Position numbers and translations under genes: made by a program
Assembly: GCA_031268975.1 (NCBI GenBank)
Contig: JAIRWM010000186.1
Location: 1 to 33,137, forward strand
Direction: 5' to 3'
DNA: 33,137 nucleotides
Source: Treponema sp.
GTDB taxonomy: Bacteria > Spirochaetota > Spirochaetia > Treponematales > Breznakiellaceae
Shown here: positions 14,911 to 26,858 of the stretch, piece by piece
How the letters are laid out: every line of letters begins with the position of its first letter
Position numbering within the stretch: position 1 is the stretch's first letter
Notes under the pieces: generated by a model
What the model saw: only the letters and a program-made list of their open reading frames with translations
The model's database searches: none
Told to the model about the DNA's origin: nothing

Positions 14911-15495
14911 TTATTTCTGCACGATAAACTTTGGTTTTGCCAGGGGAAACTGAATATCCAGCGATGTATTGCGGCTGAGCCGCGCGCTGATAATCGCGGT
15001 ATTGTCCAGGACCACCCCGAGCCTTTCAAACACTCCAACATTCCGCTCTTCCGGTTTTGCGGAAACCTGGGCGCAGATATACCGCGCCATGCCGACAAGC
15101 TCCATCCGTTGTTTTTCCCTGTCTTTTCCGTTCAGGTGGGGACAAAGTTCGGCAAACGTTTTGTACTTTTCACTAAAAAAATCCGCACATCCGGCAAGAA
15201 ACTCTCCATTGCTGCCGTAAATTTCCCGGTAAAAGGCGTCCACGACGGCCAGGCGGACTTTCTCTTTTACCTCCGCCTGCACCTTACAGCCCATCCAAAG
15301 GCGCATCCCTATAACCAATATAACAGACGCAAGCTCCATGGAATATTTGACAAGGGCTTCTTCATCCATATCCAGATCGCCGGTAACAGACTTGTCCAGC
15401 CCCCGTGAATAACATTCCGACAATAAACCGCTCCAGGTTTCGATGTATTCCCCGAATTTCAACTGTAATTTCGCGCTTAGTTCCTGTAACGCCAC
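14911..15495 (-). CDS. Unknown helical protein, last gene of the PTS operon
   Basis: This is a 194-residue, predicted mostly alpha-helical, soluble protein with no signal peptide. It is rich in Glu, Lys and Leu, contains four cysteines, and ends with the hydrophobic-basic stretch QFPLAKPKFIVQK. I recognise no domain. The start is GTG at 15495 with GGAG six bases upstream, ten bases after the SIS-domain gene. Its position as the final gene of a sugar PTS operon suggests a role in metabolism or regulation of the same substrate. The helical character would fit a regulator or a small accessory protein, but this is only inference. Confidence 0.65.
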   Translation of the reverse strand: MALQELSAKLQLKFGEYIETWSGLLSECYSRGLDKSVTGDLDMDEEALVKYSMELASVILVIGMRLWMGCKVQAEVKEKVRLAVVDAFYREIYGSNGEFLAGCADFFSEKYKTFAELCPHLNGKDREKQRMELVGMARYICAQVSAKPEERNVGVFERLGVVLDNTAIISARLSRNTSLDIQFPLAKPKFIVQK

Positions 15496-15504
15496 AAGCC
15501 GCTC

Positions 15505-16074
15505 CTATTCCAGATTTGCGTGTCTGTCCTTTATGGTCTTTTCGTCAAGCCCTTTTATCCGCATAAGTTCCAGGGTGATGATATCTCCCAGCAGGTAAAG
15601 CTGCTGTTCAAACAATGTCGACATCGGCTGGGCCGAATTAAATTCGCCGGGCCTGGCGAATTTTGTCCGCCCGGCCAGCAGCAATGTTTTATCGGAAAGT
15701 TTTGCCGCGGTGCTTTCCGGCGAACATCCTATGTACAGCAAAACGGCTCCTTTTTCCCGGGCAATGTTCGCTATACCCACGGGGAACATACTTTCTCCGG
15801 AAGAAGAAGCGATGATCAAAGCGTCTCCTTTTTTAATGGGCCGCTCCGTTTCACTTCCTACAAAATTGATGTCCAGCCCCAAATGACAAAGCCGTTTTAT
15901 CCAGGCTTTCATGGAAATAAGCACTCTGCCCACAGCAACAACAAGAATGCGCCGTTCCTTGAGAAGCTCTTCCAGAAAGGCTGTGAAAGACTCCGGAGAA
16001 ATCTGCCCAAAGGCGGTTTCCAGCTCGTTTAGAACAAGGTTTCTGCTTGCGGAAAATGTGCTCACCGGCGTCAC
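15505..16074 (-). CDS. SIS-domain sugar-phosphate isomerase, 6-phospho-3-hexuloisomerase-like
   Basis: This is a 189-residue single SIS-domain protein. The phosphosugar-binding loop reads IIASSSGES, and the C-terminal pattern QPMSTLFEQQLYLLGDIITLELMRIKGL followed by HANLE closely follows HxlB of Bacillus, including the terminal HANLE. HxlB converts D-arabino-hex-3-ulose 6-phosphate to D-fructose 6-phosphate. The GTG at 16074 overlaps the stop of the dehydrogenase gene as GTGA and gives the usual length. The frame is open nine codons further to an ATG at 16101, which would overlap by 31 bases. No hexulose-6-phosphate synthase (HxlA) accompanies it, so it probably does not serve formaldehyde fixation. 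The neighbouring dehydrogenase is a possible source of the 3-ketose phosphate. Confidence 0.8.
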   Translation of the reverse strand: MTPVSTFSASRNLVLNELETAFGQISPESFTAFLEELLKERRILVVAVGRVLISMKAWIKRLCHLGLDINFVGSETERPIKKGDALIIASSSGESMFPVGIANIAREKGAVLLYIGCSPESTAAKLSDKTLLLAGRTKFARPGEFNSAQPMSTLFEQQLYLLGDIITLELMRIKGLDEKTIKDRHANLE

Positions 16075-17129
16075 GCTTTCGCGCTGTAAATTGCTTTGCA
16101 TATATTGACGCGCTGTTTGTATATGTCTTCACAAAGCCGGGGAAGATCTTCCAGTGAAGCCCGGTGGGTTACAAGATCCATAACCTGCATCTTTCCCGCG
16201 TCAAGCATGTCTACTGTATATGTCCACTCATTGATGGGAGTCGCGGCAAAATGGGAATTCCACATTCCCTTGAGGATCAATTCTTTTCTGAGTATTTGGC
16301 TGTGCCGGGAAAGTGGAATAGTTGTATCTTTGTGGGGATTTCCCATAAGTACCACGGTCCCGAATGTCCGCGTACAGTCAATCGCCTGGGCGAGCGCGGC
16401 CCCCGTGCCGGTTCCTTCAATTGCGGCATCGGGCAGGGCGCCATTGTTGATCTTCCTGAATTCTCCGGGTACATCCTGGGTTATCCCGTTTACCACAAAA
16501 CGTTCCCCGCGCTCTCTGGCAAAGGCCACTTTCTGATCAACCACATCCACCAGCATAACGGGGCCCGCCCCAAAAAGCCTTGCCCAGCGGGCGGCCATAA
16601 TGCCAATAGGCCCGGCGCCGAAAATCACCACGGAATTTCCCGCCCGAATTTCCGCCTTGCGAATTGCATGCTGGGCCACCGTGCAGGGTTCTACCAGCGC
16701 CAGAGAATCCGGATCCAGAGCGGGGTTTTTTGTTTCCACAAAATGCCAGGAAGACGGCACAAGGCAATATTCGGCAAAACCGCCGTCGCTCCGGGAACCA
16801 AGATAATCGTAATCCAGACACATGGCATAGTCCGCCGTCAGGCAGCTTTCGCACGTGCGGCAGGGGATGCAGGGAAACACCGCTCCCGTTTTTCCCACAA
16901 GGGCCGGATCGGCCAGGGGACCGGCAGCGGTTATTTCGCCGCCGAATTCATGGCCTATTGTAAGGGGGTATTTTTGCTTGCTTGTTCCCAGTTCAAAAAT
17001 ACGGGGAATATCGGAACCGCAGATCCCGCATGCGGCAACTTTTATTAAGAGCTGTTCTCCCCCAGGCTTCGGAACGGGAACGTCAACGGTTTTAAAACTG
17101 CCTATGGCAAATTCCTGTGCTGCTTTCAT
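16071..17129 (-). CDS. Zinc-dependent hexitol-phosphate dehydrogenase (GatD-like)
   Basis: This is a 352-residue medium-chain dehydrogenase. The catalytic zinc site is seen in GICGSDIPRIFELG and GHEFGGE, and the structural zinc cysteines lie in CIPCRTCESC plus a later Cys. The Rossmann motif is VVIFGAGPIGIMAARWA. YDYLGSRSDGGFAEY and ILRKELILKGMWNS match galactitol-1-phosphate 5-dehydrogenase (GatD) by eye better than sorbitol dehydrogenases. It would oxidise a hexitol phosphate, delivered by the PTS, to a ketohexose phosphate using NAD+. Its start overlaps the IIB stop as TAATG. The substrate and the carbon oxidised are not readable from the sequence. Confidence 0.82.
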   Translation of the reverse strand: MKAAQEFAIGSFKTVDVPVPKPGGEQLLIKVAACGICGSDIPRIFELGTSKQKYPLTIGHEFGGEITAAGPLADPALVGKTGAVFPCIPCRTCESCLTADYAMCLDYDYLGSRSDGGFAEYCLVPSSWHFVETKNPALDPDSLALVEPCTVAQHAIRKAEIRAGNSVVIFGAGPIGIMAARWARLFGAGPVMLVDVVDQKVAFARERGERFVVNGITQDVPGEFRKINNGALPDAAIEGTGTGAALAQAIDCTRTFGTVVLMGNPHKDTTIPLSRHSQILRKELILKGMWNSHFAATPINEWTYTVDMLDAGKMQVMDLVTHRASLEDLPRLCEDIYKQRVNICKAIYSAKA

Positions 17130-17605
17130 TATTTTACCAACGTTGCCACATTAACTGTTTTTGAAGCGGGTATTATCTGCACTTCCACGGTAGTACCGGC
17201 GGCGATAAAGTCCTTGAAAATTTTCCTTTCATCATCATTGGCCGAAACATTCTGAAAAAGCTTTTTCCGTCCGGAGGTCATTCCCATGCCGCCTATGTTG
17301 ATCTTGTCAAACTTGATGCCTTGATCGCTCATTCGCTTCAGCGTCATGGGTTCTTTGACGATCATCATTGTCGGTTTTTTGAGCCCCGCCTTGCAAATGC
17401 CCACAGCGGTATCGACACTCTGGACTTCAATGGAAATGCCGGAAGGAACCAGCATTTTGAACATATCCAGCATAAACTGATCTTTGCTGGTCTTGTCGTC
17501 CACCACCATAATGCAGGAGACATTGCTGTATGCATGAAGCCACGCGGCTACCACCTGACCATGTATAAGCCTGTCGTCAATTCTTACGAATTCCAAATTG
17601 TTCAT
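17129..17605 (-). CDS. PTS mannose/fructose/sorbose family EIIB
   Basis: This is a 158-residue cytoplasmic EIIB of the mannose superfamily. The phosphorylated histidine is in the N-terminal signature RIDDRLIHGQVVAAW. The central IMVVDD and a later MMIVKEP strand also fit the fold. It takes phosphate from EIIA and passes it to the sugar in the IIC/IID channel. The ATG at 17605 has AGGAG five bases upstream; an in-frame GTG two codons earlier is less likely. It lies 64 bases after the IIA gene and overlaps the dehydrogenase gene. Confidence 0.9.
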   Translation of the reverse strand: MNNLEFVRIDDRLIHGQVVAAWLHAYSNVSCIMVVDDKTSKDQFMLDMFKMLVPSGISIEVQSVDTAVGICKAGLKKPTMMIVKEPMTLKRMSDQGIKFDKINIGGMGMTSGRKKLFQNVSANDDERKIFKDFIAAGTTVEVQIIPASKTVNVATLVK

Positions 17606-17669
17606 ATACACTCCTGTTTATTTGTTCTGCCTGTATATGGCTCACTTACCGTCTTGCTCCGGGAGAAGG

Positions 17670-18068
17670 TTACTTCTTCTCCATTTTAAATTCCATTATT
17701 TCTCCGGCGCCGGTTTTCAAAAGTCCTTCAACCAGATCCGCCTGGGTTGAAGTTTCCGTGCGTTCCATGGCCGCGGCCATAACCATGGGGAGATTAACTC
17801 CGGTTATAATCCGGACATTTTTTTCCATACTTAAACGGGCAACGTTATTATTCGGCGTTCCACCGTACAAATCAACCAGGGCAACAAGCCCGTCGCCGCT
17901 GTCAACTCCGGATGCCTTTTCCTGTAAATTTTTATAAAACTCTTCGGGGGCTTCCCCGGGTTGTATACCAACCCCGGCAAACTGTTCGGGAACCCCAACA
18001 AGCATATCAACACATTCAAGCATCGACTGGGCCAGATTACCGTGGGAAACAACTAAAATTCCAACCAT
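17670..18068 (-). CDS. PTS mannose family EIIA
   Basis: This is a 132-residue EIIA-Man type protein. The phosphorylated histidine is His9 in ILVVSHGNLAQSML. The ALVDLYGGTPNNNVARL stretch and the VRIITGVNLPMVMAA segment are characteristic. It accepts phosphate from HPr. It sits between IID and IIB and has its own AAGGAA ribosome binding site. A strong hairpin lies upstream, between it and the IID gene. Confidence 0.9.
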   Translation of the reverse strand: MVGILVVSHGNLAQSMLECVDMLVGVPEQFAGVGIQPGEAPEEFYKNLQEKASGVDSGDGLVALVDLYGGTPNNNVARLSMEKNVRIITGVNLPMVMAAAMERTETSTQADLVEGLLKTGAGEIMEFKMEKK

Positions 18069-18146: not shown

Positions 18147-18971
18147 CTATGCCGCAAGTATGCCCAGCAGAGACAGAACAATACCAACAACAAAGATAAG
18201 CGCGATAATGGTTATCGGCTTGACACGTTTCCGGAGGAGACCCCAAACCCCAAGAACAATCCCCAGGGGCAGAATTCCCGGAAGCAGCATATCCAATACG
18301 CCGGTCTGGAAGTTAAGGACAACTTCCCCCAACTGGTTGGTAAAGGTCCATTCAAGCGGTATTGTTACCGCGACCCGGGATACGGCCATGTTCCCTATTA
18401 CCATTAACCCAATAACGCTGGCTACCTCAATAAGCCGGTTCATAACTCCGCCCTGGAGGAATTCCAGGATGGCGTTCCGGCCTTTTTTGTAACCGAGCAT
18501 ATACATGTTATAACCAAGTACCAGCATGATTACCTTGTAGGCCACTTCAAAAAGAATCGGTCCGAAAAAGTTTCCCGCCAGCGCCAGCTGTATACAAACA
18601 CCCGCCAGAACGGGGTACACAATGGACTGCGAAACTACATCGCCGATACCGGCCAGGGGCCCCATAAGGGCTGTTCGCACCGCGCCGATATCTTCGGCGG
18701 AAATAGGTTCGCCGTTGGCGCGCTTCTCTTCCATGGCAGCCACAATACCGTGGATAACCGTTCCCATAAAAGACGGCTCGGTATTGAAGAATTCCATGTA
18801 CTTTGAAATTTCCTGGGCATACTGGGAAGGATCGTACAGCCGTTTGATGATGGGCTGTATGGAGTTCGCGTTTCCCAGCGCCTGGAGCCGTTCATAGTTA
18901 TAGCAGGTTTCGCTGGAATATCCCAGAAGCCAGTGTTTGACCAGATCGGATTTTTTAAGTTCCTTTGCCAT
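18147..18971 (-). CDS. PTS mannose family EIID
   Basis: This is a 274-residue membrane component of the mannose-superfamily permease. The long amphipathic N-terminal part contains TCYNYERLQALGNANSIQPIIKRLYD, then FFNTEPSFMGTVIHGIVAAMEEKRA and the strongly conserved ALMGPLAGIGDVVSQ. Several C-terminal hydrophobic segments follow and end at SLLGILAA. With IIC it forms the sugar channel in the inner membrane. The start has AAGGAG, encoded in the last codons of the IIC gene, whose stop lies two bases upstream. Confidence 0.92.
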   Translation of the reverse strand: MAKELKKSDLVKHWLLGYSSETCYNYERLQALGNANSIQPIIKRLYDPSQYAQEISKYMEFFNTEPSFMGTVIHGIVAAMEEKRANGEPISAEDIGAVRTALMGPLAGIGDVVSQSIVYPVLAGVCIQLALAGNFFGPILFEVAYKVIMLVLGYNMYMLGYKKGRNAILEFLQGGVMNRLIEVASVIGLMVIGNMAVSRVAVTIPLEWTFTNQLGEVVLNFQTGVLDMLLPGILPLGIVLGVWGLLRKRVKPITIIALIFVVGIVLSLLGILAA

Positions 18972-18973
18972 GA

Positions 18974-19714
18974 TTAGGACTCCTTCGCTTTCGGCGCACC
19001 GAACATATACACAACGACGCCAATAATGATACCGAAGACGGTGATTGCCATTGTGTCAAGGCCCAGATACCTGGTAAGGAAGAACCCCGCAAAGAAGAAG
19101 GGCATGAGCTTCGCTTTCCCGATATAGTTAAGAAGCATTCCGATACCAAGGGCCGGCATCAGCGCGCCGACTACCGCAAAGGCATCCATGACCGGTTTGG
19201 GGAAATTCTGGAGCCATGAACCGAAAACCGATCCGTACATTACAATCAGAAAGGCCGGAATACCATTGATTACAAGGGATACAAGGAAAGACGGGACATA
19301 ATTCATAACCCGAATCATCTTGAGATTTCCCTTTTCCGCGAACTTGTCCGCTGCATGGACCCAGATGGCGTTCAATGACATATACGCATTCCAGGAAAGA
19401 ACCGCGACAGAACCAAGGACAACGCCTACAGAGGTCGCGGTGTAGATATCAAGGCCGGACACCAGCGCGAGGGCGGTACCGACAGGACCGGCAAACATCG
19501 GATTGCCCGGCATTGAACCGCCGGCGGTGATGAACCCGACATAGGGCAGGTTGATCGCCGCGGCGATCATCATTCCCTGAAGCGGCTGTCCCATCACCAG
19601 ACCAACCAGAAAACCTGACCACAATGGATACAACCAGGTTCTGGTGACGACATGACTGAACCACCATGTACTGCATGTGGTAACCAGTGCAACTAAAATT
19701 GCTTGTACAATCAT
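18974..19714 (-). CDS. PTS mannose/sorbose family EIIC
   Basis: This is a 246-residue polytopic permease subunit. The start MIVQAILVALV and the conserved GFLVGLVMGQPLQGMMIAAAINLPYVGF, followed by AGGSMPGNP, identify the mannose-sorbose EIIC family. The ATG at 19714 has AAGGAG seven bases upstream. The open frame extends 42 codons further, but that portion overlaps the enzyme I gene and lacks family character. A 70-bp gap separates it from enzyme I, with no terminator or second promoter that I can recognise. Confidence 0.92.
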   Translation of the reverse strand: MIVQAILVALVTTCSTWWFSHVVTRTWLYPLWSGFLVGLVMGQPLQGMMIAAAINLPYVGFITAGGSMPGNPMFAGPVGTALALVSGLDIYTATSVGVVLGSVAVLSWNAYMSLNAIWVHAADKFAEKGNLKMIRVMNYVPSFLVSLVINGIPAFLIVMYGSVFGSWLQNFPKPVMDAFAVVGALMPALGIGMLLNYIGKAKLMPFFFAGFFLTRYLGLDTMAITVFGIIIGVVVYMFGAPKAKES

Positions 19715-19784
19715 ACAATTACTCCTTCTTGACAAATTTGGAAAACACGTTTTGTAAATGCTTGTACTGCCTTTACCACCCCCT

Positions 19785-21491
19785 TTACGAATAATTACCG
19801 GGCAGCGCCGCCCGGACAAGTCCGGCTGTTTCCTCCGCATCCCGCGCCGAGGCTATCTTCTCCCCGGCTTTGGCGCATTCCGCCGCACTAAGAATACTCA
19901 GGTGCCTTTTGCAGGAAAGGGCCAGGTTCGTGGAAACGCTGAACTTTCTTAAACCCAGGGCGAGCAATACCGCCATGCCCAGAGGATCTCCGGCCATTTC
20001 CCCGCAGAGGGAACATTCAATTCCCGCCTTGCGGGAACTGTCAATAGTTTTCTTTATGAGCCATAAAACCGCGGGATCCATAAAATTATAAAGGTATTCC
20101 ACATTTTTGTTGTTTCTGTCCGCGGCGTAGGTATATTGGATAAGATCGTTGCTCCCGATACTGACAAAATCTATCAGGGGAGCAAGATGTTCAAGCATAA
20201 TCACGGCGGAAGGAATTTCCACCATGATCCCGATTTTCATTTTTTCGTTAAAAGCTTTGCCTTCGGACAAAAGTTCTTTTTTTGCCCCGGATGTTATTTC
20301 AAGCAGCGCTTCAAGCTCGCCAACCGTGGCGACCATGGGAAACATCATCCTGACATCGCCATAGACGCTTGAACGGAGTATTGCCCGCAGCTGGGTGTTC
20401 AGCAAGTCCGGCTGCTTCAGGCAAATTCGCACCGCCCTGAACCCCATAAACGGATTTTCTTCCTTCGGGAGCTTAAGGCACCGGACATCCTTGTCTCCCC
20501 CTATATCCAGTGTTCTGATAACAAGGGGATTCTGCCCGATTTTTTCCGCCGCCTTTTTGTAAATGGCAAATTGTTCATCTTCGGTGGGAAGCTTGCCGCG
20601 GTTCATGTACAGAAATTCCGTGCGGAAAAGGCCGACGCCGTCCATACCGTATTCGGCGGGCCTGCCCAGCGATACCGGATCGATAACATTGGCCAAAAGC
20701 TGAATACGTTCCCCGTCGGCCGTCCGCGCATCTTTCCCGGTAAATCCCCGTAATTCTTTCCGCAGTTCTTTATACTTTTGTATTTTTTCCGCATAGATGC
20801 TTTTTTCTTCCATCCGGATACCGGTTTCAAAAACCCCCGCCTCCACATCAAGATACGACAGGGAACCGTGCTCTACAGACGCGGCGCCCACGCAGCCGAC
20901 AAGCGTGGGAATCTCCAGACTTGACGCAAGAATGGAGACATGGGAAGTTTTCGTTCCCTTTTCAAGAACAATCCCCGCCACATGCTCCATATCGGCGTAC
21001 AAAAGCATGGACGGCATAAGGTCTTCTCCGGCCAGAATACAATTTTCCGGCAGGCGGGAAATATCCGGATACTCCATCCCCAAAACAAGGTAGGCAACGC
21101 GGCTGGCTATATCGTGGACATCATCGGCACGCTGGGACATATATTCGTCTTCCAGAGATCGGAACATTTCTTCCTGGGTTCCGGAAGCCCTCATAATCGC
21201 GGCAGCCGGTTCATAGCCCTGAGAGGCCAGCTTTTCCATTTCTTCCCGAAAGGCCGGATCGAGAATCATGGTTTCCTGCACGTCAAACAGTTCGCCCAAT
21301 TCACTGCCGGCCCCGGCCCGTTCCTTCGACCGGCGAAGCCGGGCAACCGCCTGTTCAACGGCGCGGTCGATGCTTTCCATAATCCTGTTTTTATCCGCGG
21401 AAAGACTTTTTTTATCCAGATCGAAAGTATGTACCTGGGCAAGAAGATGGGCTTTTTCCAAAGCCTGCCCCGGACTAACCGGAGTTCCCTT
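19785..21491 (-). CDS. ptsI: PTS enzyme I (phosphoenolpyruvate-protein phosphotransferase)
   Basis: This is a 568-residue enzyme I of normal length. The active-site histidine is in GTKTSHVSILA. The PEP-binding C-terminal barrel shows TLDIGGDKD, NPFMGFRAVR, the SIGSNDLIQYT block and CSLCGEMAGD with the catalytic cysteine. It transfers phosphate from PEP to HPr. Start choice: ATG at 21491 has TAGGA eight bases upstream and gives the usual MKGTPVSPG N-terminus. ATG at 21500 directly follows the HPr stop. The gene belongs to the sugar operon rather than to a separate general ptsHI locus, so this enzyme I may be dedicated to this regulon. Confidence 0.92.
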   Translation of the reverse strand, partial: KGTPVSPGQALEKAHLLAQVHTFDLDKKSLSADKNRIMESIDRAVEQAVARLRRSKERAGAGSELGELFDVQETMILDPAFREEMEKLASQGYEPAAAIMRASGTQEEMFRSLEDEYMSQRADDVHDIASRVAYLVLGMEYPDISRLPENCILAGEDLMPSMLLYADMEHVAGIVLEKGTKTSHVSILASSLEIPTLVGCVGAASVEHGSLSYLDVEAGVFETGIRMEEKSIYAEKIQKYKELRKELRGFTGKDARTADGERIQLLANVIDPVSLGRPAEYGMDGVGLFRTEFLYMNRGKLPTEDEQFAIYKKAAEKIGQNPLVIRTLDIGGDKDVRCLKLPKEENPFMGFRAVRICLKQPDLLNTQLRAILRSSVYGDVRMMFPMVATVGELEALLEITSGAKKELLSEGKAFNEKMKIGIMVEIPSAVIMLEHLAPLIDFVSIGSNDLIQYTYAADRNNKNVEYLYNFMDPAVLWLIKKTIDSSRKAGIECSLCGEMAGDPLGMAVLLALGLRKFSVSTNLALSCKRHLSILSAAECAKAGEKIASARDAEETAGLVRAALPGNYS

Positions 21492-21504
21492 CATCCTCGG
21501 CATC

Positions 21505-21765
21505 CTATTCTTCCAGTCCATTGATATATTCAAGCATCTGTTTCAGCGCCTCTTCCTCATCGGTTCCGTCTGTTTTGACAACAACCGTCTCACCGATTTT
21601 GAAGTTACAGTGGAGCACCTTAAAAATGCTTTTGGCGTCACAGTTCCGCTCACCGCATGTAATGGTAACGGCGCTCTGAAACCCCTTACTCAGATTAACC
21701 AGTTTTACCGCAGGCCTGGCATGCAGACCGGTGGGATTTTTGATGACAACTTCGGCGCTAACCAC
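21505..21765 (-). CDS. ptsH: PTS phosphocarrier protein HPr
   Basis: This is an 86-residue HPr. The active-site His is in NPTGLHARPAVKLV. AKSIFKVL carries a Ser at the position that HPr kinase phosphorylates in other bacteria. The start is GTG at 21765 with GAGGG seven bases upstream. It is the first gene after a sigma-54 promoter, with a leader of about 137 nt that can form a hairpin close to the ribosome binding site (TTCG/CGAA arms around 21790-21815) and contains the 10-bp palindrome GCCGATCGGC at 21863-21872. Enzyme I follows after 13 bases. Confidence 0.9.
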   Translation of the reverse strand: MVSAEVVIKNPTGLHARPAVKLVNLSKGFQSAVTITCGERNCDAKSIFKVLHCNFKIGETVVVKTDGTDEEEALKQMLEYINGLEE

Positions 21766-21911
21766 GCAATTACCCTCTCATCCATTGTTCTTCGTACGGC
21801 AGACCTGCGAAACAACCAGAGGGACCGTCGAACAGCCTGCAAGCAATGTTGATTAACTTGCGGCCGATCGGCGCCTCTCGTGTGTTTCGCCGGTTTCTGC
21901 ACTGAAAATAG

Positions 21912-21927
21912 AGCAAGAATCATGCCA
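21912..21927 (-). promoter_or_regulatory. Sigma-54 promoter of the PTS operon
   Basis: On the minus strand the sequence is TGGCATGATTCTTGCT. GG at -24 (21925-21926) and GC at -12 (21913-21914) are separated by exactly ten bases, and the flanks match TGGCA and TTGC[AT]. It overlaps the last codons of the activator gene, whose TGA is at 21920-21922, and points to ptsH. The predicted start is near 21902. Together with the adjacent LevR-type activator this is a strong call. Confidence 0.85.
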
Positions 21928-24769
21928 AAACACTTTTTTGAGGCACAAATTCTTTCCCCAAATCCTGATTTTCTTCCACAGGCGCAAAATTTCCCAGTTT
22001 TAACGCGAGAATTTGTTCAAGCATTTTGTATTCTCCGTCTCCTATGCGTATACGGTACATGGTCTCCAGGGTTTTGCACGCATCCACTAAATCCGCCGAA
22101 GCTTTCCGGGGAGCGCTTTGATTCCGTTCCTCGAAGATCAGCCGTTCAAGCATGGACGCCAGGTGAAGCAGCATCATAATCCGCTTGCCCCGATCCAGCT
22201 TCCCCCTGGATTTTTCAATTTTTTCCATACACTCGTTAAGGTACGGGATGGTTTTTTCGGCGGAAAGATAAAAAAGGTAATTTTCCAGGTATTTGCCGGA
22301 CGCGTATTGTTCTTCCAGGAATCCCGGCTGCGCCTGCTGCGGCCCCTGGCGCAGACACCGGTTTTGCAGTATTTCTCCCAGCCTTTGTACCCCGCTGCCC
22401 AGGACAAATTCCATCGCTGAAATAAACGGAAAGCCTATCTCCAGCCCTTCCACCATGCCGATTACACAGATAAGTTCCTGTTCTTTCGCAAGACTGGATA
22501 TCCTCTGCCGTAACTCCTCAACGGACGGCAGATCAAGCGTTAAAATTTCTATGTAATCGGGAAACTTGAAGCAGTCTTCTATGATTTTTTTAAGCTTTTT
22601 CGCCGCCCCGCATCCGGAAATGCAGGCGGTTACTATAAGCCCCTTTTTCGGCTCGGAAAGCAAATTTTTCGTTTCCAGCCTGTAAAGCTCGTTATAGCCG
22701 TGTTCCAGGGTCTTTAGATGGCTGCGTATTTGCTGTCCTGTTGCCCGGTGCTCCACAGCCAAAATGGCGGCCTCTATTACCATGGACGTACTTATATCGC
22801 TGACAAGGTACAGCTTCTTGTTGTATCGGGCTTCCAAATCCGCGCAGAGTCCAAACAACGCCGGGCTGTCGGTAAGCACCACGAGGTGTTCATAGTCGTC
22901 AAGCTCGGCAATTTTTTTAGCCGCGGCGCGGTAAAGATCTTCCGTTGTTATGTCTTCCATTGCCACGTCAAGCCAGGAAACAAATTCCCTGGCGACAACA
23001 CTGTTGGCAAGCCGGGCCATGTTTTTTGCGCTCCCCAGGCCGTGACATACCACCACTATGCCGCAGCGCTCTTTCTGGTTCTTTTCGTCATATATACGGA
23101 GAATAAGATTGGCGATAATGCCCGTTTCGTTTTCCGGCAGTTCCAGGCCGTATTCCTGTTTCATCATTACAACAATCTGGGACGCCGCGTCGAAAACATC
23201 GGGCCTGTCTTCCCTGACTTTGGAAAAAGCGGGATAAATTATCGTGCCGTTTCCCGGAGGGGAACTTTCTCCGCCGGCCCGGCAGGTTCCGGCATGGGAA
23301 ACCGCTGCGTTGATATGCTGGACTATTACCGAACGGCTCCGTTCATCCAGGGCCAGTCCAAGCTCACAGGTTATGATCTCTTCCACATGGCGGGTAATGT
23401 CGTATATTTTGGACGGTACCTCGTTTATGCCCTGCTTCTCAAAAAGTTCCTCGTCTTGATTCATAAAAAGCCGCTGGAAATAGTTTTTAATTTCCGAAGT
23501 CATAACAAACTCAAGATAGTTCTTGCCCATGTCGTCACCGGCAAATTCCTCATACCTGTGGGCGAGGATCCGGTAAATGTCGGGATTTCCGGCTGATGTC
23601 TGGTAGCGCGGATCGGCGGGAACAACGCTGTTTTCCAATTCCAGAGAAATCGAAAAATCCCTGGCGATAAGATTTATGTCGGAATAAATATCTTTTAGTT
23701 TTCGGATTCCTTCCTTTACGTGACCGGGAAAATCCAGCAAACCAACGTTCAGTGTCTGCTGGTTTTCCATCAGGCAGGATACATAGCTCTGGGCGCAGGC
23801 AACCTTAATGTCGTTTTCCAGCTGCCCCACATTCCCCGGGCAGTCATAGCTTAACAGGGCTTTGATTGCCAGAACGTCCACGGTAATGGCCTTGCCCAGC
23901 TTCACCCCTTCCTGGGTAAAAAGCCGCCGGACAAGATCGAGCCGCTCAATGGGGCTCCTCTGATCCAGAGGCGGCAGGGTTACCACAATGGGGATACGCC
24001 GGTTAAACGCGGCAAGAAGGGCAGAGCCGCGATCTTCGGTCGTTGCCATAATGATTATCGGACTGGCCTTGCGGCTGATATCCGCTTCGCCAAGCCGGTG
24101 GTATTTCCCGTAATCCATAAGGAAAAACAGCATTTCCTGGCTTGTCTCGGGAAGCCGGTGAACCTCGTCCAAAAACAGCACGCCCCCATCGGCCGACTGC
24201 ACCAGCCCGTCGCGGCTCGCGTCCGCGCCGGTATACGAGCCTTTGGCGTACCCGAAAAGCTGAGCCATAATAAGCTGGGGGTTATTGGCGTAATCGGCGC
24301 AATTAAAGGAAACAAACCGCGCGTCATCTTTGATTCTGCCGGCTTTTCTGGCATATTCAAACATTAACTTGGCAAAAGTCGTCTTTCCGACCCCGGTTTT
24401 ACCCCCAATCAACAGAGGAAGACCGCTTAGGGGGTACAGGACGGCCGCTTTGGCCTTTTCAATTTCCATCCCCATGCTGCCGTTATAACCGATAAAGCCC
24501 TCAAAAACCTCGTTTGCGGCGTCCACCGTTAAAGAGGCGTCTTTTTCCGGCATCGGCGTCAATACCGCGGCGCTGGCCCGGTACCGAACCGGCCACCCGG
24601 TTAGTTTATCCACCAATTCGGCCTCGAAAAGCCGGTTAAGATCGGAACTTACATTTGCCCGGGACGCACCAACCGCTCCCGCGATCTCCTCAGTGGTATA
24701 AACCGCGTTCATACCACGCTGATTTTTCATTTTTCTCAAAAATTCATAGACTGCCTGTTTGCGAATCAT
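21920..24769 (-). CDS. LevR-type sigma-54 activator with PTS regulation domains
   Basis: This is a 949-residue transcription activator. In order it has an N-terminal winged helix-turn-helix (residues 1-65), an AAA+ sigma-54-interaction domain (about 90-330) with Walker A GGKTGVGKT at 122-130, the sigma-54 contact loop as GSYTGA at 177-182 and Walker B LFLDE at 198-202, a first PRD (about 450-565), an EIIA-Man-like domain with His576 in VVVCHGLGS, an EIIB-like segment with cysteines near GLIVTACISGCG, and a second PRD with MLLHLASMLERL near the C-terminus. In LevR-like proteins, phosphorylation by HPr and by the cognate EIIB tunes activity to PEP and substrate. It has no Shine-Dalgarno sequence; a -10 box lies five bases before the ATG. 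It would drive the operon from the sigma-54 promoter at its own 3' end. Confidence 0.9.
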   Translation of the reverse strand: MIRKQAVYEFLRKMKNQRGMNAVYTTEEIAGAVGASRANVSSDLNRLFEAELVDKLTGWPVRYRASAAVLTPMPEKDASLTVDAANEVFEGFIGYNGSMGMEIEKAKAAVLYPLSGLPLLIGGKTGVGKTTFAKLMFEYARKAGRIKDDARFVSFNCADYANNPQLIMAQLFGYAKGSYTGADASRDGLVQSADGGVLFLDEVHRLPETSQEMLFFLMDYGKYHRLGEADISRKASPIIIMATTEDRGSALLAAFNRRIPIVVTLPPLDQRSPIERLDLVRRLFTQEGVKLGKAITVDVLAIKALLSYDCPGNVGQLENDIKVACAQSYVSCLMENQQTLNVGLLDFPGHVKEGIRKLKDIYSDINLIARDFSISLELENSVVPADPRYQTSAGNPDIYRILAHRYEEFAGDDMGKNYLEFVMTSEIKNYFQRLFMNQDEELFEKQGINEVPSKIYDITRHVEEIITCELGLALDERSRSVIVQHINAAVSHAGTCRAGGESSPPGNGTIIYPAFSKVREDRPDVFDAASQIVVMMKQEYGLELPENETGIIANLILRIYDEKNQKERCGIVVVCHGLGSAKNMARLANSVVAREFVSWLDVAMEDITTEDLYRAAAKKIAELDDYEHLVVLTDSPALFGLCADLEARYNKKLYLVSDISTSMVIEAAILAVEHRATGQQIRSHLKTLEHGYNELYRLETKNLLSEPKKGLIVTACISGCGAAKKLKKIIEDCFKFPDYIEILTLDLPSVEELRQRISSLAKEQELICVIGMVEGLEIGFPFISAMEFVLGSGVQRLGEILQNRCLRQGPQQAQPGFLEEQYASGKYLENYLFYLSAEKTIPYLNECMEKIEKSRGKLDRGKRIMMLLHLASMLERLIFEERNQSAPRKASADLVDACKTLETMYRIRIGDGEYKMLEQILALKLGNFAPVEENQDLGKEFVPQKSVLA

Positions 24770-24816: not shown

Positions 24817-25836
24817 TTAACGCTGCGAAGGTTCCCCGCCTTGGCGGGCGATTTCCGAACGGTTTCTGCCCTGTTCTTTTGCCCGGCGAAGGGCGGAATC
24901 GGCGGCAAATACCAGTTCCCGCTCATTGGAGGCGTGGACCGGGGCAACGGCTATTCCAAAGCTTGCCCTGACGTCCAGTGTTACCGTCTCCCGGGAACCG
25001 GGGCTTTTTGCTACTTTTACCGGGCTGTTCATCACATTTTGCCTGATATGCTCGGCCACACCGAAGGCGCCCCTGCCGTCGGTATCCGGCAGCAATACGG
25101 CGTACTCGTCGCCCGAAAGCCTGGCCGCCATATCGCCCGGCCGGCCTGTGTTTTTAAGAATTTCCGCGACGGCGATAATGACTTTGTCTCCCGCCTGCGT
25201 ACCATAAGCGTCGTTAATCGCGTGAACCCTGTCCAGATCTATCATTATCAGGGACATTTTTCTCGCGCCTACGCTGCCCAGCTTGAATTTGTCCCTGATT
25301 GATTCCTCCAAAAAACTTTTGTTGTAAAGGCCGGTAAGCTCATCGGTAATGGCCCGGCGGCGGGCCGCTTCGCCCCAGGTTGCCAGATCTTTCAGGTGCC
25401 GCGAGGTCTGGTTAAACCAGATGGTCTGAACACTTCCTATGGAGTTAAGAATCCTGACCCCGATCATGGGGTGTTCAAAGATGATGCGGTAAAAATCAAT
25501 ACCCTGAAGTACCATGATGTCGGAAATCTCTTTCGCGATAATTGTCGCCGAACGGGGTTCATTGGCAATTATCGACATTTCCCCGAAAAACGCCCCCGGG
25601 GCTATGGAAAACATCAGGCGCTGGGTTCCGTCCGACTGGGCCCGGTGGGCGCTTAACGAACCGGAAAGCAGCACAAACATATCTTCGCCCTTGTCACCTT
25701 CCTCAAAAACTTTCTCTCCCTGTGCCAAGCGGCGCCGCTCCATAAAGGCCAGTACGGCATTGAATTCCAGAGCGCTTAATCCGTTAAAAAAAGGGGAGTT
25801 TATCAGTACGGGATCGACATTGGGCGCCGGGTTCAC
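24817..25836 (-). CDS. Cyclic-nucleotide-binding diguanylate cyclase
   Basis: This is a 339-residue protein. An N-terminal cNMP-binding beta-barrel (about residues 15-130) includes FFGEMSIIANEPRSATIIA, which resembles the phosphate-binding cassette with its Arg. A helical linker and a GGDEF domain (about 165-335) follow. The active-site loop reads SGDEY, a permitted variant of GGDEF. MIDLD and the following DAYGTQAGDKVI have the metal-binding Asp and family residues. It probably makes cyclic di-GMP under control of a ligand at the N-terminus. The GTG at 25836 overlaps the stop of the upstream paralogue as ATGTGA, with a G-rich ribosome binding site. It ends 47 bases before the LevR-type gene. 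Confidence 0.8.
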   Translation of the reverse strand: MNPAPNVDPVLINSPFFNGLSALEFNAVLAFMERRRLAQGEKVFEEGDKGEDMFVLLSGSLSAHRAQSDGTQRLMFSIAPGAFFGEMSIIANEPRSATIIAKEISDIMVLQGIDFYRIIFEHPMIGVRILNSIGSVQTIWFNQTSRHLKDLATWGEAARRRAITDELTGLYNKSFLEESIRDKFKLGSVGARKMSLIMIDLDRVHAINDAYGTQAGDKVIIAVAEILKNTGRPGDMAARLSGDEYAVLLPDTDGRGAFGVAEHIRQNVMNSPVKVAKSPGSRETVTLDVRASFGIAVAPVHASNERELVFAADSALRRAKEQGRNRSEIARQGGEPSQR

Positions 25837-26858
25837 ATCGCCCCCTTTCCGGCCGGAACGGCATGGCAACGGGTAATTTTGCCGCCGCCCTGTTTCCAGG
25901 CATCAAGCAAAAGTGAATAACACCCTTCAAAAAGCTTATCCCAGTTATGGCCGTCTTCGGGCCAAAGGGCATAGCAGATGGTTCCGGAAAAGGAAAACGC
26001 GGGTATATCGCCCTGGGCGGGAACGGGCGGCAGGGAAGCAATGGCGCGGGAAAGCTCTTTGGCTACCTTTTCCGCGAGGGAAACCCCGCATTTGTTGATC
26101 AGTATCCCGGTTTCGTTGCTTTTGAAACGGAGCGGCCAGCCCCGGCCTATACGGCGGGTAATGTTTTTAAGCATCATGGCAATTTTTACCATAGCCTCGT
26201 CCCCCGCAGCATGACCGCGGGAATCCACCAGTATTTTGAAACGATCCGGCTTAAGCATGATAAGCGCTGTAGGAACTTCGAGAATACGGTCAATTTCGTC
26301 GGACAGAAATGTCTGTTTCCAGAGGCCGGTTCCGGGATCTTCATAAGCCCGGCGGTGTAGTTCATTTACCCAGGAAAGGTTTTCCAGAAGCATCTTTTGA
26401 GTGCTTTTTATCCGGCTTGTCATCATCACAATGGAATTAAGAAGAATACGCGACACGATATGGGGCTCTTCGGCAATAAAATCTTCCATCGAAAGCCCCA
26501 TCGCGGGAAACATGATAAGCACGGAGTCTTCCGACGCTTCGGCGCTGGCATCGTATTCGGCTTTCCGGGCAAAGTCAAAATCGCCGATGGTATCGCCGGG
26601 AGCGAATTGAGCCATTTCGTCACTGCCCCCGTCGTCCCTGGGCTTAAAAACCCGGATGTTGCCTTCGGTGAGCATATAGAAGTGTTCGGCTTTCTGCCCG
26701 ATGGAAAAAAGCCGGGCTTTTTTCCTCAAATGGATAACGCTGGACCGTTCGGCGACATAATCAACCTCACGCTCCAGAAGTGAGCTGAACAATTCCGTCT
26801 TTTTTATCGGAGCAGGATCCAGTATCTGCTTTAAGGCTTGCTGTTCCAAAAACACCAC
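25833..26858 (-). CDS. cNMP-binding protein with degenerate GGDEF domain
   Basis: This is a 341-residue paralogue of the next gene, with the same plan: a cNMP-binding barrel (about residues 35-130, with a cassette region GDTIGDFDFARKAEYDASAEA) and a GGDEF-like domain (about 170-330). In place of GGDEF the loop reads SNETG, and the first metal-binding aspartate pattern (MIDLD in the paralogue) is MLKPD here. It is therefore expected to lack cyclase activity and may act as a c-di-GMP effector, GTP-binding protein or partner of the intact enzyme. Start codons at 26858 (GTG) and the next codon are both GTG. A TATATA-like -10 lies upstream, but the promoter is unclear. Confidence 0.72.
   Translation of the reverse strand: MVFLEQQALKQILDPAPIKKTELFSSLLEREVDYVAERSSVIHLRKKARLFSIGQKAEHFYMLTEGNIRVFKPRDDGGSDEMAQFAPGDTIGDFDFARKAEYDASAEASEDSVLIMFPAMGLSMEDFIAEEPHIVSRILLNSIVMMTSRIKSTQKMLLENLSWVNELHRRAYEDPGTGLWKQTFLSDEIDRILEVPTALIMLKPDRFKILVDSRGHAAGDEAMVKIAMMLKNITRRIGRGWPLRFKSNETGILINKCGVSLAEKVAKELSRAIASLPPVPAQGDIPAFSFSGTICYALWPEDGHNWDKLFEGCYSLLLDAWKQGGGKITRCHAVPAGKGAM

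Follow-up and report, generated by a model that had tools for sequence, protein, structure and literature searches.

A sigma-54 promoter overlapping the end of a LevR-type activator gene in Treponema sp., with a probable activator half-site at its -24 element

The locus and its genes

The stretch of DNA analysed here (the window, 33,137 nt of a Treponema sp. contig) carries on its minus strand the gene for a LevR-type sigma-54 activator and, directly downstream, an operon of PTS genes. The sigma-54 promoter TGGCATGATTCTTGCT lies at their junction, and is followed by ptsH, ptsI, IIC, IID, IIA, IIB, a dehydrogenase gene and two more genes, the last of which ends at 14911. The main features are as follows.

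21920..24769, minus strand: LevR-type sigma-54 activator, 949 aa, with an N-terminal helix-turn-helix, a sigma-54 interaction domain, PRD, EIIA-man, an EIIB-like domain and a PRD2-like region
21912..21927, minus strand: sigma-54 promoter TGGCATGATTCTTGCT, GG at 21926-21925 and GC at 21914-21913, with 0-mismatch counterparts in family relatives
21766..21901, minus strand: leader of 136 nt with a long hairpin (fold prediction) and, inside it, a degenerate copy of a dispersed palindrome
21505..21765, minus strand: ptsH (HPr), GTG start, GLHARP site, PTS-HPr match of 87.5 bits
19785..21533, minus strand: ptsI (enzyme I), start codon uncertain, profile match
18974..19840, minus strand: PTS IIC, sorbose/mannose family, Pfam match
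18147..18971, minus strand: PTS IID, Pfam match
17670..18068, minus strand: PTS IIA, Pfam match
17129..17611, minus strand: PTS IIB, Pfam match
16071..17129, minus strand: zinc alcohol dehydrogenase, nearest to galactitol-1-phosphate 5-dehydrogenase and below the cut-off of that model
15505-16101, minus strand: SIS-domain-like protein with a homolog in the L084 relative described below
14911-15495, minus strand: protein without Pfam match, also with a homolog in L084

All four components of the mannose/sorbose family (IIA, IIB, IIC and IID) score above their Pfam cut-offs. Elsewhere in the genome further HPr and EI genes are found, giving four matches to each, so that the operon is not the sole source of HPr and EI. 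The stretch covering the leader (21902-21740, 163 nt) is predicted to fold at -64 kcal/mol (z -3.5), and the palindrome within it, of the form GCTGATTNNCNNCAAGTTAATCAGCG, recurs at other places in the same genome (loci L164-L174). The sole Rfam match in 21400-22100, to mir-1253, was discarded as chance (20.8 bits where the gathering score is 103, E 0.21).

A reading of the sequence made without database searches (the sequence-only reading) had placed a LevR-type activator next to the promoter, and the domain content agrees: Sigma54_activat (118.8 bits), PRD (39.2 bits) and EIIA-man (23 bits) each exceed their cut-offs. Against the DagR model (NF047795) the protein reaches 418.7 bits, below the curated cut-off of 1400, and it is therefore LevR-type yet not DagR. 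Its sigma-54 contact loop reads GSYTGA and not GAFTGA; among 85 activator rows the loop is GAYTGA in 65, GAFTGA in 11, GSYTGA in four, GTYTGA in three and something else in two. The phospho-acceptors H485, H576, C716 and H869 are conserved in 83 to 85 of these 85 rows, with H576 (EIIA-like domain) and H869 (PRD2) each present in 83. These two correspond by domain to the phosphorylated histidines of B. subtilis LevR, given as His-585 and His-869 in the available part of PMC10864463. H576 is replaced by Y and Q in L083 and L084, the closest named relatives among the best 80 of 391 loci.

Sigma-54 itself is encoded in the genome, the absence of which the sequence-only reading had named as an argument against its proposal: there is one PF04552 match (179.8 bits), with an intact open frame of 469 aa containing ARRTVAKYR. 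The genome also contains ten Sigma54_activat matches, six of them strong. A search of viral_contigs for relatives of the activator returned four stretches that fit a pattern, none of which encodes one.

Two neighbouring arrangements may be recorded here. Two genes for cNMP-binding/GGDEF-domain proteins (window 24817-26858) lie on the same strand, 47 nt 5' of the activator gene, and co-transcription with it is possible. Elsewhere in the genome (C164:1772-2563, loci L049 and L035), an HPr match is followed at once, on the same strand, by a match to a sigma-54 activator, the two perhaps forming an HPr-bearing activator.

The sigma-54 promoter and its conservation

TGGCATGATTCTTGCT occurs once in the window (21927-21912, minus strand, exact 16-mer search). 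It agrees at every defined position with TGGCAYRNNNNTTGCW, which we take to be the sigma-54 consensus and which served as the scan pattern. Together with the T in front of it, it also fits the Clostridiales consensus TTGGCATNNNNNTTGCT given in the available part of PMC6615313. Since it matches both, the site is a full-consensus promoter: the earlier label "near-consensus" was right about the promoter type and too modest in its "near". The coordinates confirm a spacing of exactly ten bases between GG and GC, and the site points, as had been proposed, at ptsH, whose GTG is at 21765 on the minus strand. The predicted transcription start is 21901 (counting the C of the -12 element as 21913), adjoining the 21902 expected previously. 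No sigma-70 promoter was called at TGGCATGATTCTTGCT on the minus strand.

When the window was scanned for the consensus, a check that the sequence-only reading had suggested, TGGCATGATTCTTGCT was the sole match at 0 or 1 mismatch in 33 kb; the other seven of the eight matches obtained when up to 2 mismatches were allowed all had 2. In 600 first-order Markov simulations, exact sites arose at a mean of 0.03 per window, equal to about 7e-5 for a stretch of 156 nt on one strand. A candidate second site 5' of the activator gene (TGGAATAGCCGTTGCC, 24958-24943) was rejected, having 2 mismatches in a window where eight matches at this level compare with 13.5 expected. The genome-wide count at up to 1 mismatch was likewise abandoned as evidence of enrichment (38 matches versus 89 for the reversed pattern). 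The reversed pattern is unusable as a control because its base composition differs, and weight was therefore placed on the nine exact sites of the genome and their locations.

Relatives of the activator were found at E <=1e-40 in 6 of 98 same-family genomes, own included, and at E <=1e-60 in two of the 392 genomes of a phylum-wide draw, namely the own genome and G038. At four family loci (L043, L044, L046 and L048) a 0-mismatch site lies between the same type of activator and ptsH-ptsI, and at L043, L044 and L047 a second 0-mismatch site is located 5' of the activator gene, pointing away from it toward IIA-lac and IIB-lac.

A wider comparison used the best 80 of 391 confirmed LevR-family loci, all from named organisms. 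The closest relative in this set is L083, from Calditrichales bacterium MX18-03 (activator identity 54%), where the elements are arranged as in the window: activator, the site GTGTTTTGGCACTTAAATTGCA with 1 mismatch, ptsH, ptsI, IIC and IID. The same spot in L083 scores 11/12 as a sigma-70 type promoter, and may be readable as both types. L084, from Ruminococcaceae bacterium Marseille-P2935 (51% identity), lacks any site within 2 mismatches downstream of its activator; directly 5' of that activator an RpoN-like frame (999-2297) was recognised by eye. Among these best 80 of 391 loci, a site with no more than 1 mismatch falls between -200 and +350 of the activator stop in 57, offset from it by 20 to 313 nt (median 131), and the remaining 23, L084 included, have none in that range. 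The proposal of a sigma-54 promoter for the ptsH operon is thus supported by the full consensus, by syntenic sites in relatives and by the presence of rpoN.

A probable half-site joined to the -24 element

Two further elements on the minus strand are candidates for binding by the activator.

21927..21934, minus strand: probable activator half-site AGTGTTTT, whose last T is common to the -24 element
21881..21888, minus strand: possible inverted half-site GAAACACA, 9 nt beyond the usual place and doubtful, because it lies inside the stem of the leader hairpin

To judge from its distribution, AGTGTTTT, which went unnoticed in the sequence-only reading, is in all likelihood a half-site for the activator itself that overlaps the promoter. 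The motif [G/C]TGTTT stands directly 5' of TGGCA at all eight LevR-linked sites of the family that were examined, own included. Over 75 sites, it is found at the -24 element in 18 of 21 sites linked to activators with an SRANVSxDL recognition helix, versus 2 of 54 others (Fisher 2.4e-12, in a test that ignores relatedness and with a helix grouping defined after the motif was noticed). The two exceptions (L103 and L104) have activators whose helix reads RANVSNDL. With the looser definition RANVSxDL the counts become 20/26 versus 0/49, or 17/22 versus 0/49 when one site is taken per locus; with the strict definition and the rows of family f1 left out they are 8/11 versus 2/54. The half-site is thus missing in 3 of 21 SRANVSxDL sites, and in 6 of 26 under the looser definition.

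An inverted AAACAC occurs 5-35 nt past the site in 11 of 21 SRANVSxDL sites versus none of the 54 others. It is usually at index 28-33 from the first T (about +3 to +8), and here at index 40. Further upstream, GTGTTT and AAACAC add up to 33 occurrences in 6594 nt in the SRANVSxDL group versus 14 in 16956 nt in the others; L123 has four copies of AAACAC spaced 20 bp. In the window, by contrast, neither exact motif is present within 320 bp 5' of TGGCATGATTCTTGCT, a range that includes the 100-150 bp typical of the LevR UAS, and a single 8-mer with 1 mismatch to the half-site (AAAACCCT) is found at 22075. The usual remote enhancer is therefore not recognisable here, and a UAS of another sequence is possible.

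The same association was seen in searches across genomes. GTGTTT is present at one of the nine exact sigma-54 sites of the own genome, TGGCATGATTCTTGCT alone. Sites of the form GTTTTGGCAYRNNNNTTGCW number 24 in 19 of 195 family genomes: ten of them, from the six genomes that carry the activator, lie before ptsH or IIA-lac, and in each of these GTTTT is preceded by [G/C]T, as it is in none of the other 14. For one of the ten (L062), the contig itself carries no activator. A search for the pattern TGTTTTGGCAYRNNNNTTGCW then covered the genomes belonging to 24 loci, of which 14 are RANVSxDL-like (counting L084, with the helix RPNVSSDL) and ten CelR-type or other; it gave 19 matches in 9/14 versus two matches in 2/10. 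Eight of the 19 had been seen before and 11 were new. Nine of the new sites lie directly before IIA-lac, IIB-lac or HPr genes (one HPr), and the other two before a HAD-type gene and a glycerol-facilitator-like gene, all these genes being named by eye; AAACAC is at index 30-32 in four of the 11. The five RANVSxDL-like genomes with no match are those of L083 (whose site has a mismatch), L084, L160, L161 and L162.

The helix and the half-site also recur at a distance. An activator tree was built from 35 of 83 long rows, comprising all 23 RANVSxDL rows, own included, and 12 others, with L134 left out. The own activator forms a fully supported clade with L083 and L084 on a long branch, far from a 19-row clade that holds most RANVSxDL rows, and the RANVSxDL helix needs four changes on the tree. 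From these positions, the same helix and the promoter-fused half-site occur together in two deep branches.

The locus could nevertheless be a plain LevR-sigma-54 promoter, in which GTGTTTT would merely lengthen the -24 element in this lineage or be an inherited flank, and the activator would act from an unrecognised upstream enhancer inside its own gene. Known systems would fit such an arrangement, in that LevR and CelR have their UAS upstream, B. subtilis LevR binding at -125 (PMC10864463, available part), whereas the candidate half-site here is fused to the -24 element. Likewise, the UAS of Clostridiales regulons lie mostly 100-250 bp upstream, and promoter-fused half-sites are not described in the available part of that study (PMC6615313). 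Direct repeats of AAAACACT upstream of several SRANVSxDL loci, and the one degenerate half-site AAAACCCT, can be cited on the same side. It is hard, however, to reconcile a mere flank with the absence of GTGTTT from the other eight exact sigma-54 sites of the genome, with the presence of [G/C]TGTTTTGG at 10/10 GTTTTGGCA sites before ptsH or IIA-lac in activator-carrying genomes and at 0/14 other such sites, or with a half-site that follows the helix type of the activator in deep lineages. We consider this explanation unlikely.

The overlap with the activator stop codon

The promoter does overlap the stop codon of the activator gene, as the sequence-only reading had stated: TGA at 21922-21920 forms bases 6-8 of TGGCATGATTCTTGCT, and the last codons of the activator are AGT GTT TTG GCA TGA. 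They belong to a terminal extension of the protein.

21923..21988, minus strand: C-terminal tail of the activator, 22 codons, absent from the two closest relatives L083 and L084

The tail is probably former intergenic DNA, and its absence from both relatives suggests that the stop drifted into the promoter through loss of an earlier stop. In L083, 81 nt separate the activator stop from the promoter, and this interval can fold into a hairpin of 15 pairs (-27.7 kcal/mol, z -4.5) with a U-run at its end, although a consensus terminator scan of the interval called none. Most simply, this genome would have lost both an earlier stop and such a hairpin, so that the frame would now end at the TGA inside the promoter. 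None of the 57 LevR-family loci with a near-end site (among the best 80 of 391) has an activator stop that overlaps it; a sigma-54 promoter 3' of the activator is therefore common, and the overlap is not. In the family relatives L043 and L044 the site starts 5 and 7 nt past the activator stop, and tight packing of activator and promoter thus recurs in the family without overlap. The overlap itself looks accidental, and a special design is not supported.

No terminator was called between the activator gene and ptsH on the minus strand, which makes transcription reading through from the activator into ptsH plausible. Could the overlap then be a selected device, by which activator transcription interferes with the promoter or feeds the operon with its HPr and EI? 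The lack of a called terminator, the closely packed promoters of L043 and L044, and the phosphorylation of LevR-type activators by HPr, as set out in the available part of PMC10864463, would all suit it. An arrangement under selection would scarcely be expected to be absent from all 57 relatives (best 80 of 391 loci), to rest on a tail added relative to L083 and L084, or to have as its counterpart in the closest relative a hairpin with a U-run between stop and promoter; moreover, with four HPr and four EI genes the operon is not the only supply. Selection for the overlap thus appears quite improbable.

Other sigma-54 promoters in the family

Several further groups of sigma-54 sites came to light during these searches. 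In the own genome, four sigma-54 promoters (L002, L004, L009 and L010) are joined at -11 to (CT)n microsatellites. The pattern GG-N10-GC-(TC)7 matches 126 times, in 42 of the 195 family genomes, and with N10 left free all but three of them (in G025) read GGC at the start, nearly all being full consensus. Of 53 CT tracts collected from 13 genomes, under the condition that two upstream places are free of A, 51 begin at a sigma-54 site; the other two are interrupted tracts, and five of the 13 genomes had none. The tracts measure 16-69 nt in 33 loci, many of which precede genes that look by eye like lipoprotein genes, and in 15 of the 33 the tract is followed by a motif like ACTCACCGYCATCT. The junction could be a dispersed, length-variable promoter cassette, and nothing on it was found in literature searched by title and abstract start.

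Full sigma-54 sites also stand directly before sigma-70 family genes (by eye), at C13:34081 (L003) and C62:20787 (L006) in the own genome and likewise in four relatives (L060, L066, L068 and L069). Their placement suggests a cascade from sigma-54 to the sigma-70 family, much like that of RpoN-RpoS in Borrelia (PMC3037356, available part). Other sites precede Hsp20-like genes (L008 and L057), an ammonium-transporter-like gene (L061) and a nifH-like gene (L074), again named by eye.

Two more elements were noted near promoters. At CelR-like loci (helix DRANxSRYL), a downstream GTGTAA is found in 15 of 27 sites, 13 of which have it precisely at +1 (index 26), and from this position it is taken as another element fixed at the start site. 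In seven Chloroflexota loci (L091, L135, L137, L145, L150, L152 and L154), the -24 element is preceded at a distance of a few bases by a palindrome like AGTGTGCTAT...TAGCACACT, which is a candidate for another LevR-type operator near the promoter.

Interpretation

With consensus, gene order, conservation, rpoN and the dependence of the half-site on helix type all observed, TGGCATGATTCTTGCT is very probably the promoter of the mannose-family PTS operon, where the LevR-type activator encoded just upstream would bind the fused AGTGTTTT and open the complex, the overlap having arisen from a lost stop. That TGGCATGATTCTTGCT is a chance match and no promoter is highly improbable: an exact site did arise in about 3% of simulated windows, but position, direction and conservation in relatives all oppose it.

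In the mechanism that we propose, E-sigma54 would occupy the -24 and -12 elements, the activator would bind AGTGTTTT half-sites, one of them fused to the -24 element, and its AAA+ domain would open the complex once PTS phosphorylation permits. The half-site spans -33 to -26 and is mirrored at about +5 to +12 in many relatives, and the same protein would most likely both hold and activate the promoter. As this promoter has no exact upstream copies, the fused half-site would be its main activator site. Judged by its position, a protein on the fused half-site would clash with sigma-54 at -24, and holding or hand-over is for this reason likelier than plain recruitment; the activator on AGTGTTTT may keep the promoter from opening until PTS phosphorylation changes. 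The activator frame, having lost an earlier stop, would have run into the promoter and so produced the stop overlap. The fullest form of this scheme is put forward tentatively: in a branch of LevR-type activators, the half-site would be built into the -24 element and mirrored just past the start, inverted around the -12 element, and the activator would occupy its own promoter while idle and open it once activated, with no need of a remote enhancer. It is an equally tentative suggestion that operator, promoter and the activator's last codons have about 15 bases in common in this genome.

FleQ-type activators bind at or downstream of the promoter. They resemble the activator proposed here in binding near the start and not at a remote enhancer, and belong to a different protein family. 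Closer parallels are B. subtilis LevR/lev and B. thuringiensis CelR/cel, which have the same N-terminal DNA-binding, AAA+ sigma-54, PRD, EIIA-man and EIIB-like domains and a sigma-54 promoter driving a PTS operon (PMC10864463, available part); unlike them, the operon here opens with its own ptsH-ptsI. The Clostridiales sigma-54 regulons share the promoter consensus, the location of the activator beside its target operon and PRD-containing activators (PMC6615313, available part). The promoter-activator pair is therefore ordinary. The fusion of the operator to the -24 element looks new as a variant, in that no description of it was found in the literature searched by title and abstract start; it may already be contained in the CelR motifs of Nie et al. 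2016, the source named in the available part of PMC6615313 for its PRD-type motifs.

The half-site tracks the recognition helix across Bacillota, Calditrichota and the lineage of the window itself. Sigma-54 activators are taught as remote enhancer binders; if the present proposal is true, an activator of this type could, right at the promoter, either compete with the polymerase or be handed over to it. SRANVSxDL together with GTGTTTT beside TGGCA would then offer a usable recognition code for predicting PTS regulons.
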